Source of the DNA: Elioraea thermophila (ex Habib et al. 2022)
GTDB lineage: Bacteria; Pseudomonadota; Alphaproteobacteria; Acetobacterales; Acetobacteraceae
DNA length: 64,000 nucleotides
Assembly: GCF_003336755.1 (NCBI RefSeq)
Contig: NZ_QMDI01000005.1
Coordinates: 1 to 64,000 of the forward strand
Direction: 5' to 3'
Position numbers and translations under genes: made by a program. The notes beneath the pieces were generated by a model. The model was given only the letters and a program-made list of their open reading frames with translations, ran no database searches and had not been told where the DNA came from. This document shows positions 50,645-58,879 of the stretch, piece after piece (position 1 is the first letter of the stretch; every line of letters starts with the position of its first letter).

Positions 50645-51511
50645 TCAAGCTATCTTCAGCTCCTGCAGCGCCGCCTCGAGCTCCTGGAACGACGGCATGT
50701 GCTCGGTCGGTGCCATCTTCCGCCCCGTTTCCACCGCCACCTGCGGCGCGTTGCCGTGCAGATGGGCGACCAGCACGGCGCGGATCACCTCGTAGTACTT
50801 CATCTCCTCCTCGACCACGCCGGCGAGACGCGACGAAAGCGGCCCCATCAACCCGTAGGCGAGCAGCACGCCGAGGAAGGTGCCGACGAGCGCGCCGCCG
50901 ATCATCCTGCCGAGCACGGGGGGCGGTTCGGTGATCGAGCCCATCGTCTTGATGACGCCCATGACCGCGGCGACGATGCCCAAGGCCGGCAGGGCGTCCG
51001 CCATCTTCTGCATGGCGTGTGCGGGGTGCATCTCCTCGGCCAGCATCTTCTTCAGCTCGCGGGCGAACACGTCCTCGATCTGGTGCGGGTCGTCGGCGTT
51101 CATGCCCACCATGCGCAGGTAGTCGCAGATCAGGGTCACCGCGTGGTGGTCGGCCGCGATCTTGGGGAACTTGTTGAACGCCGCGCTTTCCTGCGGCTTC
51201 TCGATGTGCGGCTCGAGCGCCATCGAACCCTTGGTGCTGGCAAGCCGCACGAAATAATAGAGCAGGCTCAAGAGCTCGATGTAGTCGGCTTTCTTGAACC
51301 GCGCACCCTTGATGATCTTGCCGAAGCCTGCCAGCACGTGCTTCACGCCGTGCATCGAGTTCGCCATGATCAGCGTGCCGATGGCGGAGCCGCCGATGAT
51401 CATCATCTCGAACGGCAGGGCGGCGAGGATGATGCCGAGCTTGCCACCGGCCAGGATGTAGCCGCCGAAGACGCAGATCAGCACGACGACGAAGCCGACG
51501 ATCGTCAGCAT
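50645..51511 (-). CDS. motA: Flagellar motor stator protein MotA
   Basis: The 288-residue protein has four transmembrane segments: two near the N-terminus (MLTIVGFVVVLICVFGGYIL and the next) and two after residue 170 (GIVAAVMGVIKTM, GALVGTFLGVLLAYGLMGPL). The cytoplasmic loop with conserved charged residues (YFVRLASTKGSMALEPHIE) contacts FliG. MotA with MotB forms the proton-driven stator of the flagellar motor. It lies 186 nt downstream of motB, the reverse of the usual motA-motB order. No other flagellar gene is in the window. Confidence 0.95.
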   Translation of the reverse strand: MLTIVGFVVVLICVFGGYILAGGKLGIILAALPFEMMIIGGSAIGTLIMANSMHGVKHVLAGFGKIIKGARFKKADYIELLSLLYYFVRLASTKGSMALEPHIEKPQESAAFNKFPKIAADHHAVTLICDYLRMVGMNADDPHQIEDVFARELKKMLAEEMHPAHAMQKMADALPALGIVAAVMGVIKTMGSITEPPPVLGRMIGGALVGTFLGVLLAYGLMGPLSSRLAGVVEEEMKYYEVIRAVLVAHLHGNAPQVAVETGRKMAPTEHMPSFQELEAALQELKIA

Positions 51512-51697: not shown

Positions 51698-52747
51698 TCA
51701 GTTGACCGCCGCGGCCGTGACGCCCTGCGGGCCCGGCACCGTGCGCTGGACGAAGATCGCGATCCGGCGGTTGGCCGGCGCGCGGGGATCGGCCGGCAGG
51801 AGCGGTTCGCGATCCGCCCGCCCGGAGACCGACTGCACGAGCCGCTCCGGCAGTCCTGCCTCCTGCAACACGCGCCGCGCGGCATTGGCCCGCTCGGCCG
51901 ACAGGTCCCAGTTGCTCTGCGCACTGCCCGGGCGGAACGGCGCGGCATCCGTATGGCCGGCGATGGTCACCGGCTTGTCCAGCCGGGCGAGGATCGGCGC
52001 CACCTTGGCGAGCAGCGCGCGCGCCGCCTCGTTCGGCTGCGCCGACCCGAGTGCGAACATCGCCCGGTTCTCGCTGTCGAGCAGCTGCAGGCGCAAGCCT
52101 TCCGGCGTGACGTCCACCGCGAGGTGGCGGGCGAGGGCAGCGAGCGCCGGGTCGGCCGCGACCTCGGCCTTGATCGCCTCCGCTGCGGCCTCGAGCGCGC
52201 GCGCCTCCGCCTCCGCCTCCGCCTCCGCCCGCTCGCGTTCCGCCTGCGCCTGGCGAGCGGCCTCGCCCTCCGTCGCATCGAGCCCGCCTTCGCCACGGGT
52301 CCGCGGGTCGGCGAAGCGCCCCCCTTCGGCGTAGGGGTTGGCGAAGGCCCCGCCTTCGGCGAACTGGGCCTGATGCGGCTCACCCTCATCCGGCACGTCC
52401 ACCTGGTCGGGCGGGAAGGAGCGTGGCACCTGCGGCACGGTCGGCGTGCCCGCGCGCCCGACCAGCGAGTCGTCGTGCGTCATGTCGGCGCCGCCGAAGG
52501 GACGGCCCATGCCGGAATTGCCCGAGCCGAAGATGTTCGCCTCGGCGAAGTAGTTGGCGATGCCGAGCCGCTGCTCCTCCGTCGTGGCGTTGAGCAGCCA
52601 CATCAGCAGGAAGAACGCCATCATCGCGGTGACGAAGTCGGCATAGGCGACCTTCCAGGCCCCGCCGTGATGACCGTGGCCCTCGCCCTCGTCGCGGCGG
52701 ATGACGATCGGCGCGGCGTCCTTGTCCTTGCCCTTGCCCTTGCTCAT
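51698..52747 (-). CDS. motB: Flagellar motor stator protein MotB
   Basis: The product has 349 residues from the ATG at 52747 (a GTG 9 nt upstream is possible). A single transmembrane helix follows WKVAYADFVTAMMAFF; Asp37 is the proton-binding residue. A long Glu/Ala-rich linker with likely coiled coil (about 155-195) precedes a C-terminal OmpA-like peptidoglycan-binding domain (TIAGHTDAAPF, SAERANAARRVL). MotB anchors the stator to the cell wall. It is divergent from the mrp operon and upstream of motA. Confidence 0.94.
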   Translation of the reverse strand: MSKGKGKDKDAAPIVIRRDEGEGHGHHGGAWKVAYADFVTAMMAFFLLMWLLNATTEEQRLGIANYFAEANIFGSGNSGMGRPFGGADMTHDDSLVGRAGTPTVPQVPRSFPPDQVDVPDEGEPHQAQFAEGGAFANPYAEGGRFADPRTRGEGGLDATEGEAARQAQAERERAEAEAEAEARALEAAAEAIKAEVAADPALAALARHLAVDVTPEGLRLQLLDSENRAMFALGSAQPNEAARALLAKVAPILARLDKPVTIAGHTDAAPFRPGSAQSNWDLSAERANAARRVLQEAGLPERLVQSVSGRADREPLLPADPRAPANRRIAIFVQRTVPGPQGVTAAAVN

Positions 52748-52864
52748 CGTGCCCACGTGCCGGGATGGAAGCCGCCTCGCGCGACCCCGCCCGCTCCCGA
52801 CACTGCCGCACAGGGATTAAGCCTTGCCTAAACGCCGGCGCATGCCCGGCCTGGCGGCGCCCGG

Positions 52865-52893
52865 TTGCGCCCCGTCACCCCGGCGCCTATATG
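52865..52893 (+). promoter_or_regulatory. Candidate promoter of the mrp operon
   Basis: TTGCGC (52865-52870) and TATATG (52888-52893) are separated by exactly 17 bp, in otherwise GC-rich DNA. The predicted transcription start near 52900 leaves a leader of about 110 nt before the upstream ORF and 155 nt before mrpA. Confidence 0.6.
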
Positions 52894-52937
52894 CGCGCCC
52901 GGCGCGGGTCGGCCCCGTGCTGCGTGCATGAAGACCT

Positions 52938-52993
52938 CGGGGCATCGCCCGACTGCCCCGGACCGGACGGCGAGCGCAGCCGCGCCCGCGTCC
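52938..52993 (+). promoter_or_regulatory. Structured 5' leader of the mrp operon, possible riboswitch
   Basis: Two consecutive stem-loops are visible: CGGGGCA/TGCCCCG (52938-52944 with 52954-52960) and GGACG/CGTCC (52965-52969 with 52989-52993), which encloses an inner GCGC/GCGC stem. They are followed by the purine-rich GGGGGAGAGAG that acts as ribosome-binding site for the upstream ORF. Leaders of cation transporter operons can carry lithium- or sodium-responsive riboswitches (nhaA-I and DUF1646 classes). I cannot match this one to a known consensus. Confidence 0.35.
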
Positions 52994-53008
52994 TTCTGGG
53001 GGAGAGAG

Positions 53009-53062
53009 ATGGCGATTGGCGAGGCCCTGAGCGAGCGGCGGCGGAGCGACTGGCTGTGCTGA
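53009..53062 (+). CDS. 17-codon upstream ORF overlapping the mrpA start
   Basis: An ATG at 53009 directly after the strong GGGGGAGAG ribosome-binding site opens a frame encoding [17 protein letters not shown], ending in TGA at 53060-53062. The GTG start of mrpA (53056-53058) lies within its last codons in another frame. Ribosomes finishing the small ORF would thus be delivered to mrpA, whose own ribosome-binding site is weak. This suggests translational coupling or a regulatory leader peptide rather than a functional protein. Confidence 0.5.
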   Translation: MAIGEALSERRRSDWLC

Positions 53063-55350
53063 CTGTCGTTCTCGCCCCCTTCTTCGCTGCCCTCGCCGCG
53101 CCGTGGCTGGTGCGACGTCTCGACCGCCGGGCGTCCTTCGTCCTCGCCCTCGTTCCGGTCGCGATCTTTGCCTGGACCCTCTCGCGCCTGGATGCCTTCG
53201 CCGCGGGGTTGACGGACGTGACACCGTGGGTGCCGGGGCTCGACGTCGCGCTGGCCTTCCGACTCGACGGGCTGTCGGGGCTGTTCGTGCTGCTGATCTC
53301 CGGCATCGGCACGCTCGTCGTGCTGTATGCCGGCGGTTACCTCGCCGGGCACCCGATGCTCGGCCGGTTCTTCGTGTTCCTGATGCTGTTCATGGGCGCG
53401 ATGCTCGGCCTCGTTCTGGCCGACGACCTGATCGCGCTCTTCGTGTTCTGGGAACTGACGAGCCTCGCCTCCTACCTCCTGGTCGGCTTCCAGAGCGAGA
53501 AGCCGGCCGCGCGGCGGGCCGCGCTGCAGGCGCTGCTGATCACGGGGACGGGCGGGCTTGCGCTGCTCGCGGGCCTGATCCTCGCCGCGATCGCCGGCGG
53601 CTCCTGGCGACTCTCCGACCTCGTCCTCGCCGGTGAGGCAATCCGCGGCCATGGGCTCTACCTGCCGGCGATGGGGCTGATTGTGCTCGGCTCGTTCACC
53701 AAGAGCGCGCAGTGGCCGTTCCACTCCTGGCTGCCCGGCGCGATGCAGGCACCGACCCCCGTCTCGGCCTACCTCCATTCCGCCACCATGGTGAAGGCCG
53801 GCGTCTATCTCCTCGCCCGGCTGGATCCGGCCTTCGGCGGCACCGCGGCCTGGACCACCACCCTGCTCGTCATCGGCGGCATCACCATGCTGGCGGGGCT
53901 CGTGCTCGCGCTCCTCGAGACCGACCTCAAGCTCGTCCTCGCCTGGACCACGGTGTCCGCCCTCGGCGCGCTCGTCTTCCTGATCGGCCCGGCGACCGAG
54001 GACAGCGCGCGGGCGGCGATGGCCTTTCTGCTCACCCACGCCCTCTACAAGGGTGCCCTCTTCATGGCGGCGGGCAATGTCGATCACGAGGCGGGAACGC
54101 GCGACCTGCGCGACCTTTCGGGGCTGGTTCGCGCGATGCCGATCACCTTCGCCGCCACCGCCGTCTCCTCGGCCTCCATGGCGGGGTTTCCCTTGAGCCT
54201 CGGCTGGGTCAGCAAGGCGATCACCAAGGCCGCCGCGATCGAGGCGGGGGGGTTCGTGCCGGTGGCGGTGGTCACCTTCGCCACCCTGCTCCTGGTGGCG
54301 ATCGCCGGCGTGGTCGCGATCGAACCGTTCCTCGGGCGCAAAAGCGAGGCGGCGAAGGAGGCGCACGAGGCGCCGCCCTCGATGCTGGTCGGGCCGCTCG
54401 CACTGGCCTCCCTTTCGCTCCTCTTCGGCCTCTTCCCCGATCTCGTCTCCGACGCGGTGCTCGCTCCCGCCGCCTCCGCCGTCGCCGGCGTGCCGCTTGC
54501 CGTCGAGGCGAAGGTGATCAAGCCGTTCGACTGGACCCTCGGCCTCACCCTCGTCGCCTTCGCCGCCGGTGCCGCGCTCTACGTGCTGTGGCAGCGCCGT
54601 GCCGAGCTCTGGCGCGATCGGCTCGAGCCGGTGCTCTCGCGCGGGCCCGATGCCGGATACGATCATGCCCTCGTCGGCCTCGCGCGCCTCGCCGCCTGGC
54701 AGACGCGGCTTTGGCAGCCGGGCCTCCTGCATCGCTACACCGCGGCAACCTTCGCCGTCATCGTCGTCGCCACCTTGGCGGCCCTGTTCCGCGGCGATCT
54801 CCGCCTCGCCTTCCCGCTGGATGGGCTGCGGCTGATCGAAATCGCGGTGATGGCGCTCACCGCTGCGGCCGCGATCGTCGCCGCCATCGCCACCACCCGG
54901 CTGCTCGCCGTCACCGCGCTCGGCATGGTCGGCATCGGGGTCGCGCTGATCTTCATGCTGTTCGGCGCGCCCGATCTCGCCATCACCCAGTTCATGGTCG
55001 AAACGCTGGTCGTCGTGCTGCTGGCGCTCGTCTTGGTCCGCCTGCCCGGCTTCCGCCTCTCCGCCACCGCCGACCGCCCGCGCGCGCTGCACGCGGCGAT
55101 CGCCGGGGCGACGGGGCTTCTCGTCATCGTGCTCCTGCTCGGCGTGCTCGCCGAACCGTTCGATTCGCGGCTTTCCGAGTGGTTCGCGCGCACCTCCGTG
55201 CCGGAGGCCTTCGGGCACAACATCGTCAACGTCATCCTGGTCGATTTCCGCGCCATCGACACCCTGGGCGAGATCATTGTCGTGTTCGCGGCCGCCCTCG
55301 CCGGGCTTGCCGCCATCGCGGCGCGGGCGACGCGGCGGGGGGCGCGATGA
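53056..55350 (+). CDS. mrpA: Mrp Na+/H+ antiporter subunit A
   Basis: The 764-residue membrane protein, starting at the GTG at 53056, is homologous to complex I NuoL-type antiporter subunits. It has [34 protein letters not shown] and a C-terminal extension with [16 protein letters not shown] and [15 protein letters not shown], the domains shared with MbhD/MbhE. It is the largest subunit and contributes proton and Na+ paths. Length fits group 1 Mrp. The start is inferred because no ATG precedes the first helix in this frame. It overlaps mrpB by 4 bp (ATGA). Confidence 0.93.
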
Positions 55351-55790
55351 GCAGCCTGATCCTGCGCGCAGGCACGCGGATCCTCGCGCCGATGATGCTT
55401 CTGCTCTCGGTGTTCCTGCTCTGGCGCGGGCACAACCTGCCGGGTGGCGGCTTCATCGGCGGCCTCGTCGCCACCTCGGCGATCGCGCTGCAGGGCATCG
55501 CCTTCGGCCCCGAGGCGATCCGCCGCACCCTGGTCGTCCCCCCCGCCGTCGTGGCCGGGGTGGGCGTGCTGATCGCCGTTGTCGCGGCGTTGCCGGCCGC
55601 GCTCGCGGGCTTGCCGTTCTTCACCGGGCTCTGGCTCAAGCTCGACCTCGGCGACGGCGCGGTGCTGCCGCTCTCCACGCCCCTCCTGTTCGACATCGGG
55701 GTCTATCTCACCGTCATCGGCGGGGTGTGCGCGTTGATCGCCGCCCTCGAGGAGGAGCCTTCGCTCGAGGGCGGCGAAGAGGGCGGCTGA
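55347..55790 (+). CDS. mrpB: Mrp antiporter subunit B
   Basis: The 147-residue MnhB-like protein has four predicted transmembrane segments and the conserved [16 protein letters not shown] motif followed by a late [17 protein letters not shown] segment. It starts in an ATGA overlap with mrpA and lies 4 nt before mrpC. It is an essential small membrane subunit of the seven-part antiporter and cannot act alone. The acidic C-terminal tail ([14 protein letters not shown]) is unremarkable. Confidence 0.93.
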
Positions 55791-55794
55791 GGCG

Positions 55795-56153
55795 ATGGAA
55801 CTGCCGCTGGTCCTCCTCATCGGCCTGCTGACCGCGGTCGCGACCTGGCTGATGCTGTCGCGCAACCTGATCCGCCTGTTGTTGGGTTTCGCCGTGCTCG
55901 GCAACGCGGTGAACCTCGCGATCTTCGTCTCTGGGCGCCTCACGCGCGATGCGCCGCCGCTCGTGCCGCTCGATGCCGAAACGATCACCGGTGCCTTCGC
56001 CAACCCCCTGCCGCAGGCGCTGGTGCTGACCGCGATCGTGATCGGCTTCGGCCTCCTCGCCTTCGCCCTCGTCCTCGCCTGGGTGGCCTACGAGCGCCTC
56101 GGCACCGTGCGCACCGACGAGATGCGCGTGGCCGAGCCTCCCGAGGAGAAGGC

Positions 56154-56157
<4 letters not shown>
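55795..56157 (+). CDS. mrpC: Mrp antiporter subunit C (NuoK-like)
   Basis: The 120-residue protein has three transmembrane helices like NuoK. Conserved elements are RNLIRLLLGFAVLGNAVNLAIF and DPLPQALVLTAIVIGF-type sequence, here ANPLPQALVLTAIVIGFG. It probably packs between MrpA and MrpD, as NuoK does in complex I. It lies 4 nt after mrpB, and its stop overlaps the mrpD start. Confidence 0.94.
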
Positions 56158-57652
<1,495 letters not shown>

Positions 57653-57656
<4 letters not shown>

Positions 57657-58144
57657 ACCGCGACGTCGGGTTGTTCGCCATCAACCTGCTGTTGATGCTC
57701 GCCTGGTGCGCGGCCTTCGGCTCGTTCTCGCTCTGGACCATGGGCACGGGTTTCGCGGCCGGTTTCGGTGCGCTCTATCTCACGCGCGACCTCTGGGCCG
57801 GTGGCACGCCGGCCTATTTCCGCAAGACCGTCCGCTTCCTCGCCTTCACCCTCTTCTACGCCAAGGCGCTCGTGCAGTCCTCGCTGCAGATCGCGCGCCA
57901 GGTGCTGAGCCCGCGCCTCGTGGCGCACCCGGGCGTGATCGCGGTGCCGCTCGCCGCCGAGCGCGACGTCGAGATCGCCGCACTCGCCAACCTGATCACG
58001 CTCACCCCGGGCACGCTCGCCCTCGACGTCTCGGAGGATCGCTCGACCCTCTACGTGCACGCGATGTTCCTCGACGACCCAGAGGCCGCGCTCGCCGACA
58101 TCAAGGGCAACTTCGAGGCCCGGCTTCTCGGGTTCCTGCGATGA
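57653..58144 (+). CDS. mrpE: Mrp antiporter subunit E
   Basis: The 163-residue MnhE-family protein has two or three N-terminal membrane helices and a soluble C-terminal half with LITLTPGTLALDVSEDRSTLYVH and a late acidic HAMFLDDPE stretch. The LTPGT motif is the family signature. MrpE is needed for a stable and fully active complex. It starts within an ATGA overlap with mrpD, and its stop codon overlaps the mrpF start. Confidence 0.94.
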
Positions 58145-58461
58145 GCGGCATCGTCTCGGTCGCCATCTGGTTCGGCTGGGTGATGATCGCGGCGGCCTTC
58201 GCGATCGGGCTCGCGCGCCTCGTCAAGGGCCCGCACCTGCCGGATCGCATCGTCGCCCTCGACATGCTCGCTCTCACCTGCATCGCCGCCGCCTGCCTGA
58301 TGGTGCTCTCCTCAGGGATCGCGGCCTATCTCGACTTCGCGCTGGTGATGGCGCTCGTCTCCTTCCTCTCCACCGTCGCCTTCGCCCGCTACGTGGAGTG
58401 GGTGGCGTTGCGCCGCGCCCGCCAGGCCGAGCCGCCGCCGCTCGAGCAGGCCGATGACTGA
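58141..58461 (+). CDS. mrpF: Mrp antiporter subunit F
   Basis: The 106-residue protein has three transmembrane helices and the conserved RLVKGPHLPDRIVALDMLAL motif. The ATG lies in an ATGA overlap with mrpE, and the last 8 bp overlap mrpG. MrpF is a small structural subunit. In some bacteria it also promotes bile-salt or sodium efflux, but no separate role is evident here. Confidence 0.94.
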   Translation: MSGIVSVAIWFGWVMIAAAFAIGLARLVKGPHLPDRIVALDMLALTCIAAACLMVLSSGIAAYLDFALVMALVSFLSTVAFARYVEWVALRRARQAEPPPLEQADD

Positions 58462-58879
58462 TCTCCTGCTCGATCTCCTCCTCGTCGTGCTGATCCTCGC
58501 GGGAGCGGGCTTCGCGCTGATCGCCGCGATCGGCATCTGGCGCCTGCCCGATTCGCTGATGCGCATGCACGCCTCGTCCAAGGCCGGCACGCTGGGCGGC
58601 TCCCTCCTCCTGTTCGCGGTCGCGATCGGGGTGGGCGAACTCGACGTCGTCGCGCGCGCCCTCGCCGGGGTCGGTTTCCTGCTCTTCACGACACCGATCG
58701 CCTCGCACTTGATCGCGCGCGCCACCTACCTGCTCGGCGTGCCGCGCTGGGAAGGGCAGGTGCGCGACGATCTCGAGGGCCGCTACGACCTCGCCGTCCG
58801 AATCTGCCGCGCCCCGGCGAGGACCGCCGACAGCGCCGCACCGAGCCCGGCGAAGGCGGAGGGATCCTCCACCGGCTGA
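58454..58879 (+). CDS. mrpG: Mrp antiporter subunit G with extended C-terminus
   Basis: The 141-residue protein has three membrane helices and the motif GIWRLPDSLMRMHASSKAGTLG followed by TTPIASHLIARA, typical of MrpG/MnhG. Family members are usually about 100-125 residues. The last roughly 30 residues (RICRAPARTADSAAPSPAKA...) are low-complexity and are encoded in the 97-bp region that overlaps the convergent racemase gene. They may be a read-through extension created by loss of an earlier stop. It completes mrpABCDEFG. Confidence 0.92.
   Translation: MTDLLLDLLLVVLILAGAGFALIAAIGIWRLPDSLMRMHASSKAGTLGGSLLLFAVAIGVGELDVVARALAGVGFLLFTTPIASHLIARATYLLGVPRWEGQVRDDLEGRYDLAVRICRAPARTADSAAPSPAKAEGSSTG

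Follow-up and report, generated by a model that had tools for sequence, protein, structure and literature searches.

How do ribosomes reach the first gene of an antiporter operon when that gene has only a weak Shine-Dalgarno (SD) sequence, and a tiny open reading frame (ORF) with a strong SD overlaps its start? This question is raised by the mrp locus in the window (i.e., the whole 64,000-nt stretch of DNA analyzed here), which comes from an Elioraea (Acetobacteraceae) genome. The genes for the subunits MrpA to MrpG lie in order at 53056-58879 on the + strand and form an Mrp (CPA3) antiporter operon, with Pfam matches for all seven products. The first gene, mrpA (53056-55350, +), has a GTG start and encodes 764 aa (PF00361, PF00662, PF13244, and PF20501); its similarity to relatives starts at GTG 53056. 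It is followed in the same operon by mrpB-mrpC-mrpD-mrpE-mrpF-mrpG (55347-58879, +; PF04039, PF00420, PF00361, PF01899, PF04066, and PF03334), in which neighboring genes abut or overlap.

A sequence-only reading of this DNA had proposed a promoter with 17-bp spacing and a leader of about 155 nt, and the coordinates of both were confirmed. The promoter (52865-52893, +) consists of TTGCGC (-35; 52865-52870), a 17-nt spacer, and TATATG (-10; 52888-52893), which places the predicted RNA start at ~52900, or 156 nt ahead of the mrpA GTG. In the window, this promoter scores below a generic sigma-70 threshold; it is credible only through its motif and spacing, which all relatives keep. Among the nine Elioraea species (two GTDB genera) with a readable mrp leader, all have TTGNNN-N17-[TC]ATAT, and all five species of Skermanella (Azospirillaceae) have TTGAAA-N16/17-CATATAG.

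The mini-ORF (53009-53062, +) was also found as described: it has 17 codons, begins at ATG 53009, and ends with a TGA (53060-53062) that overlaps the mrpA GTG (53056-53058) within GTGCTGA. It is preceded by the SD GGGGGAG (52998-53004, +), which is kept in relatives. The anti-SD duplex energy is -8.4 for the mini-ORF and -5.8 for mrpA, consistent with the claim that the mrpA start is weakly signaled. The mini-ORF does not, however, have the operon's best ribosome-binding site, as was further claimed: the values for mrpB (-9.4) and mrpD (-8.7) equal or exceed it. A longer version of this ORF, starting from ATG 52928 in the same frame (52928-53062; 41-44 codons, 44 in the window), was considered and rejected; its SD is weak, and the extension is open only in the three-species subclade that includes the window and is absent from the other subclades.

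Among dinucleotide shuffles of the leader that preserved the mrpA start, ~3% contained an ATG mini-ORF ending at the gene start with an SD of -8.4 or stronger, and 6% did so when GTG starts were allowed. For its composition, the whole leader in the window has an unremarkable fold energy (z -1.35), which was dropped as evidence of structure because it is not significant. Little can therefore be proved from one sequence, and we relied on comparison. If the mini-ORF had arisen by chance, from an ATG that falls behind G-rich sequence within a GC-rich leader, as its frequency of about 3-6% in shuffled leaders might allow, it would not be expected to be kept in 9/9 Elioraea and 5/5 Skermanella species when only ~1/46 other loci have one. 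The arrangement is more than chance because it is kept in relatives, and a fortuitous origin is scarcely credible.

In all nine Elioraea species, the promoter is followed by a leader of ~90-110 nt, a GGGG(G)A-type SD, and an ATG that opens an ORF out of the mrpA frame. In the window, this leader is about 109 nt long. The ORF has 14, 17, 24, or 28 codons and starts at -47, -68, or -80; its frame relative to mrpA is identical in 9/9. The stop is at +4 of the mrpA start in eight species, with the overlap reading [G/A]TGCTGA or GTGTTGA, and at -5 (5 nt upstream) in the remaining one. The mini-ORF SD has duplex energies of -5.7 to -10.3 (-8.4 to -10.3 in eight of the nine species), whereas the SD of mrpA itself is weak throughout (-2.4 to -5.8). 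These leaders thus share the features of a coupled minicistron, namely, a stop at or overlapping the mrpA start and a strong upstream SD vs. a weak mrpA SD, both conserved. The sequence-only reading had staked its case on the small ORF and the stems being conserved in close relatives, and the position, frame, and stop of the ORF are indeed kept in all nine species.

The subclades have no sequence in common in the encoded peptide, yet they retain the SD, ATG, frame, and stop position of the ORF. Between the window and a relative at 91% identity, the mini-ORF body has changed by 25%, compared with 31% for mrpA third positions and 30% for the upstream spacer. The block comprising the SD and ATG has 0-2 changes in 18 positions among the three species closest to the window, and 2/18 against the 91% relative. 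In the E. rosea subclade (clade B), the mini-ORF body contains large indels and the frame is still retained. A variable body with a retained frame is the pattern expected if translation matters and the peptide does not. The stop itself is less telling: a TGA at +4 is nearly free, because MrpA begins with Val/Met-Leu-Thr/Ser and its start accordingly reads (G/A)TG CTG A. The overlap is thus partly dictated by the MrpA N-terminus, which leaves the SD, ATG, and frame retention as the informative parts.

Two other explanations for the upstream SD and ORF were rejected. An N-terminal extension of MrpA is contradicted by two features of the mrpA frame: it has no usual start codon close to the SD in the window, and a stop closes it in E. 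rosea. For a programmed frameshift from the mini-ORF into mrpA, inspection of the Elioraea and Skermanella sequences showed that the overlap lacks a conserved slippery sequence.

The strong SD could also act directly on the mrpA GTG 47 nt downstream, as a stand-by or distant site, with the mini-ORF untranslated. Such action at a distance has been reported in another alphaproteobacterium, Sinorhizobium, in which an SD was proposed to act 74 nt upstream of the metA start (PMC9373788). However, an ATG is present at normal SD spacing in every species, and the frame and stop position of the ORF are retained despite indels, which makes this explanation quite unlikely.

Outside Elioraea, the same arrangement was found in Skermanella. 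All five species have a 10-codon ORF with an SD of -9.4 to -10 that ends in ATGCTGA at mrpA; their leader is short and lacks the Elioraea hairpins (see below), and in three of them a second SD-like stretch, GGAGGA, lies inside the mini-ORF and could serve mrpA directly. In Azospirillaceae without the mini-ORF, the SD of mrpA is strong (mostly -7 to -11). In the MrpA tree, Skermanella is nested among Azospirillaceae that mostly have a strong mrpA SD and no such mini-ORF, for which a separate gain in Skermanella is the simplest reading; this arrangement was probably gained independently there. A comparable ATG mini-ORF is present at one of ~46 other alphaproteobacterial mrpA loci. The mrpA of another Acetobacteraceae genome (G060; L065, ~1370-1440) is preceded by a 22-codon ATG ORF with an SD of -8.6 that ends at +1 of the likely mrpA start, which is possibly a third occurrence.

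Taken together, these sequence comparisons suggest that mrpA is likely to be coupled to a natural leader minicistron through termination-reinitiation, with a structured leader as the gate, and that ribosomes probably reach mrpA only by first translating the mini-ORF. The mrp mRNA would open with the structured leader, followed by the minicistron; after initiating from the strong SD (52998-53004), ribosomes would read its 17 codons and stop at the TGA, which shares GTGCTGA with the mrpA start, before re-initiating at mrpA. Re-initiation is proposed because the SD of mrpA itself is only weak. The minicistron would serve as a landing pad, with the peptide itself irrelevant.

The leader that precedes this putative landing pad is under clear selection, judging from its substitution pattern. 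Among the closest relatives of the window, synonymous sites and the upstream spacer change three to five times more than the RNA from promoter to SD. The leader has changed by 6-10% among the three closest species, compared with 25-37% at mrpA third positions, and by 6% between the window and the 91% relative. In the E. rosea subclade, the leader has changed by 22-24% vs. 53-61% for the upstream spacer; the trend is weaker in the tepidiphila pairs.

The sequence-only reading had also described two stem-loops in the leader, and two hairpins are predicted in the window. Clade A comprises six Elioraea sequences, including the window. The 5'-terminal hairpin (52900-52922, +) folds in all six despite sequence differences (shuffle p 0.002-0.08 each). 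The second hairpin (52956-53001, +) is predicted to pair CCCCGGA (52956-52962) with TCTGGGG (52995-53001) around an inner helix and to occlude the mini-ORF SD; its predicted probability is 0.96-1.0 in 6/6 clade-A leaders, or six of the nine species overall. Its arms are invariant in clade A. With regard to compensatory changes, which had been suggested as a check, the inner helix stays paired though its sequence varies in clade A (GGACG/CGTCC, GGTCCGG/CCGGGCC, and GGT.CCGG/CCGGACC; dinucleotide-shuffle p 0.002-0.06), but fold scores at the alignment level are weak and only suggestive (z about -1.5). When sequences are taken individually, occlusion of the SD does not go beyond shuffles (10-26 of 100), and a joint alignment of clades A and B gave no common structure (z +0.97). 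In clade B, a hairpin is predicted at the matching place with the SD less occluded. The hairpins are likely on these predictions. In the window and five relatives, the landing-pad SD would be buried by the 52956-53001 hairpin, and the leader would therefore set, and may switch, ribosome traffic into the operon.

A possible alternative state is also present. CGGGGC (52938-52943) could pair with GCCCCG (52955-52960) to form an anti-sequestering hairpin (52938-52960, +), the arms of which are kept in 6/6 clade-A sequences; it is predicted to exclude the SD hairpin and free the SD. A regulated RNA is possible because the leader is under selection and able to adopt mutually exclusive helices, and switching between them is possible on the folding models. 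A riboswitch or other RNA sensor of ions, pH, or temperature that toggles the two hairpins to gate the minicistron would account for the invariant arms of both helices in clade A and for the strong conservation of the leader, and mrp is a plausible target of such control. However, the SD-open state is predicted to be 6-12 kcal/mol less stable once the SD has been synthesized, clades A and B have no evident large aptamer-like core in common, and the searches described below, of Rfam and with a model of the leader, gave no support. We find a sensor of this type doubtful, and consider rather unlikely a new Elioraea sensor RNA that responds to cations, pH, or heat by flipping these two helices.

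The covariance search that had been suggested for the leader, against nhaA-I, DUF1646, and other ion riboswitches, gave no match. With Rfam models, no gathering match was found in the window, including the Na+ (DUF1646) and Li+ (nhaA-I/II) riboswitches; at E <= 10, the sole matches of the leader were to two eukaryotic families and fell far short of the cut-offs. In 397 Acetobacteraceae genomes, a covariance model made for the leader itself recovered only mrp leaders of the genus of the window and one weak match (G108, E 0.008), which sits in apparent coding sequence, such that no credible copy of the leader was found elsewhere. The earlier proposal of a cation-responsive RNA or a translational-coupling switch is well supported for the coupling by the comparison of 9/9 Elioraea and 5/5 Skermanella species, and is unsupported for cation sensing. 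No terminator-like site was found in 52500-53300. Transcription attenuation by a leader peptide is thus unsupported: no intrinsic terminator follows the ORF, and the peptide sequence is not conserved.

It is quite possible, if short of an even chance, that the landing pad is constitutive. In such a case, the minicistron would simply keep the mrpA start open and supply it with ribosomes, as a natural "bicistronic design," and the hairpins would serve mRNA stability and have no regulatory role. The unconserved peptide, the mini-ORF of Skermanella with its short leader free of Elioraea hairpins, the weak SD occlusion in clade B, and the absence of a known riboswitch match in Rfam are consistent with this explanation. 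It leaves unaccounted for the leader being the most constrained non-coding stretch, and the invariance in clade A of three segments capable of alternative pairing.

Parts of the proposed gated coupling have precedents. Re-initiation at overlapping stop and start codons has been established experimentally for overlapping gene pairs (PMC6728339). Such ATGA/TGATG pairs and engineered bicistronic designs (PMC5995908) share with mrp a short strong-SD cistron, the stop of which overlaps a weak-SD start; the mrp case differs in being natural, in having a conserved structured leader ahead, and in an overlap of (G/A)TGCTGA or GTGTTGA rather than ATGA. In Mycobacterium tuberculosis, a landing-pad uORF was shown for ppe2, which depends on uORF translation by termination-reinitiation (PMC11260477). 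There too, a structured leader is followed by a uORF that overlaps the main gene start, but the ppe2 leader contains a B12-binding riboswitch of a known class, the overlap is AUGA, and the uORF is longer; the likeness comes with no sequence relation seen. In Salmonella, translation of the short ORF mgtQ enables translation of the Mg2+ transporter gene mgtB via alternative stem-loops (PMC8092293). Both mgtQ and the mrp mini-ORF are tiny ORFs that directly precede a gene for an ion transporter; however, mgtQ is intergenic within an operon and encodes 8 aa with Asp/Glu codons that matter, whereas the mrp mini-ORF peptide is unconserved. The Na+ (DUF1646) and Li+ (nhaA-I/II) riboswitches (PMC9337991, PMC9646797) are likewise leader RNAs ahead of cation transporter genes, and differ in that the mrp leader has no covariance-model match. 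We found no report of mrp control by a coupled minicistron in the open-access papers searched, and a term search of one Mrp review gave no mention of leaders or promoters.

Two separate alphaproteobacterial lineages seem to place the same device before the same antiporter operon, which provides a natural test of why an operon for a large membrane complex would have its first gene fed through re-initiation. For RNA-based control by ions or pH, the conserved leader offers a concrete candidate. If the sensor reading were true, translation of a 17-codon ORF with no meaning of its own would control a whole seven-subunit antiporter operon.

Upstream of the mrp promoter, motility genes adjoin this Na+/H+ antiporter operon: motB (51698-52756, -) and motA (50645-51511, -) are divergent from it. 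The CtrA consensus is TTAA-N7-TTAA, and a CtrA-site-like box, TTAAGCCTTGCCTAA (52817-52831; TTAA-N7-CTAA), lies between motB-motA and the mrp promoter. This TTAA-N7-CTAA box is kept in the six clade-A Elioraea, and two clade-B Elioraea have TTAA-N7-TGAA.
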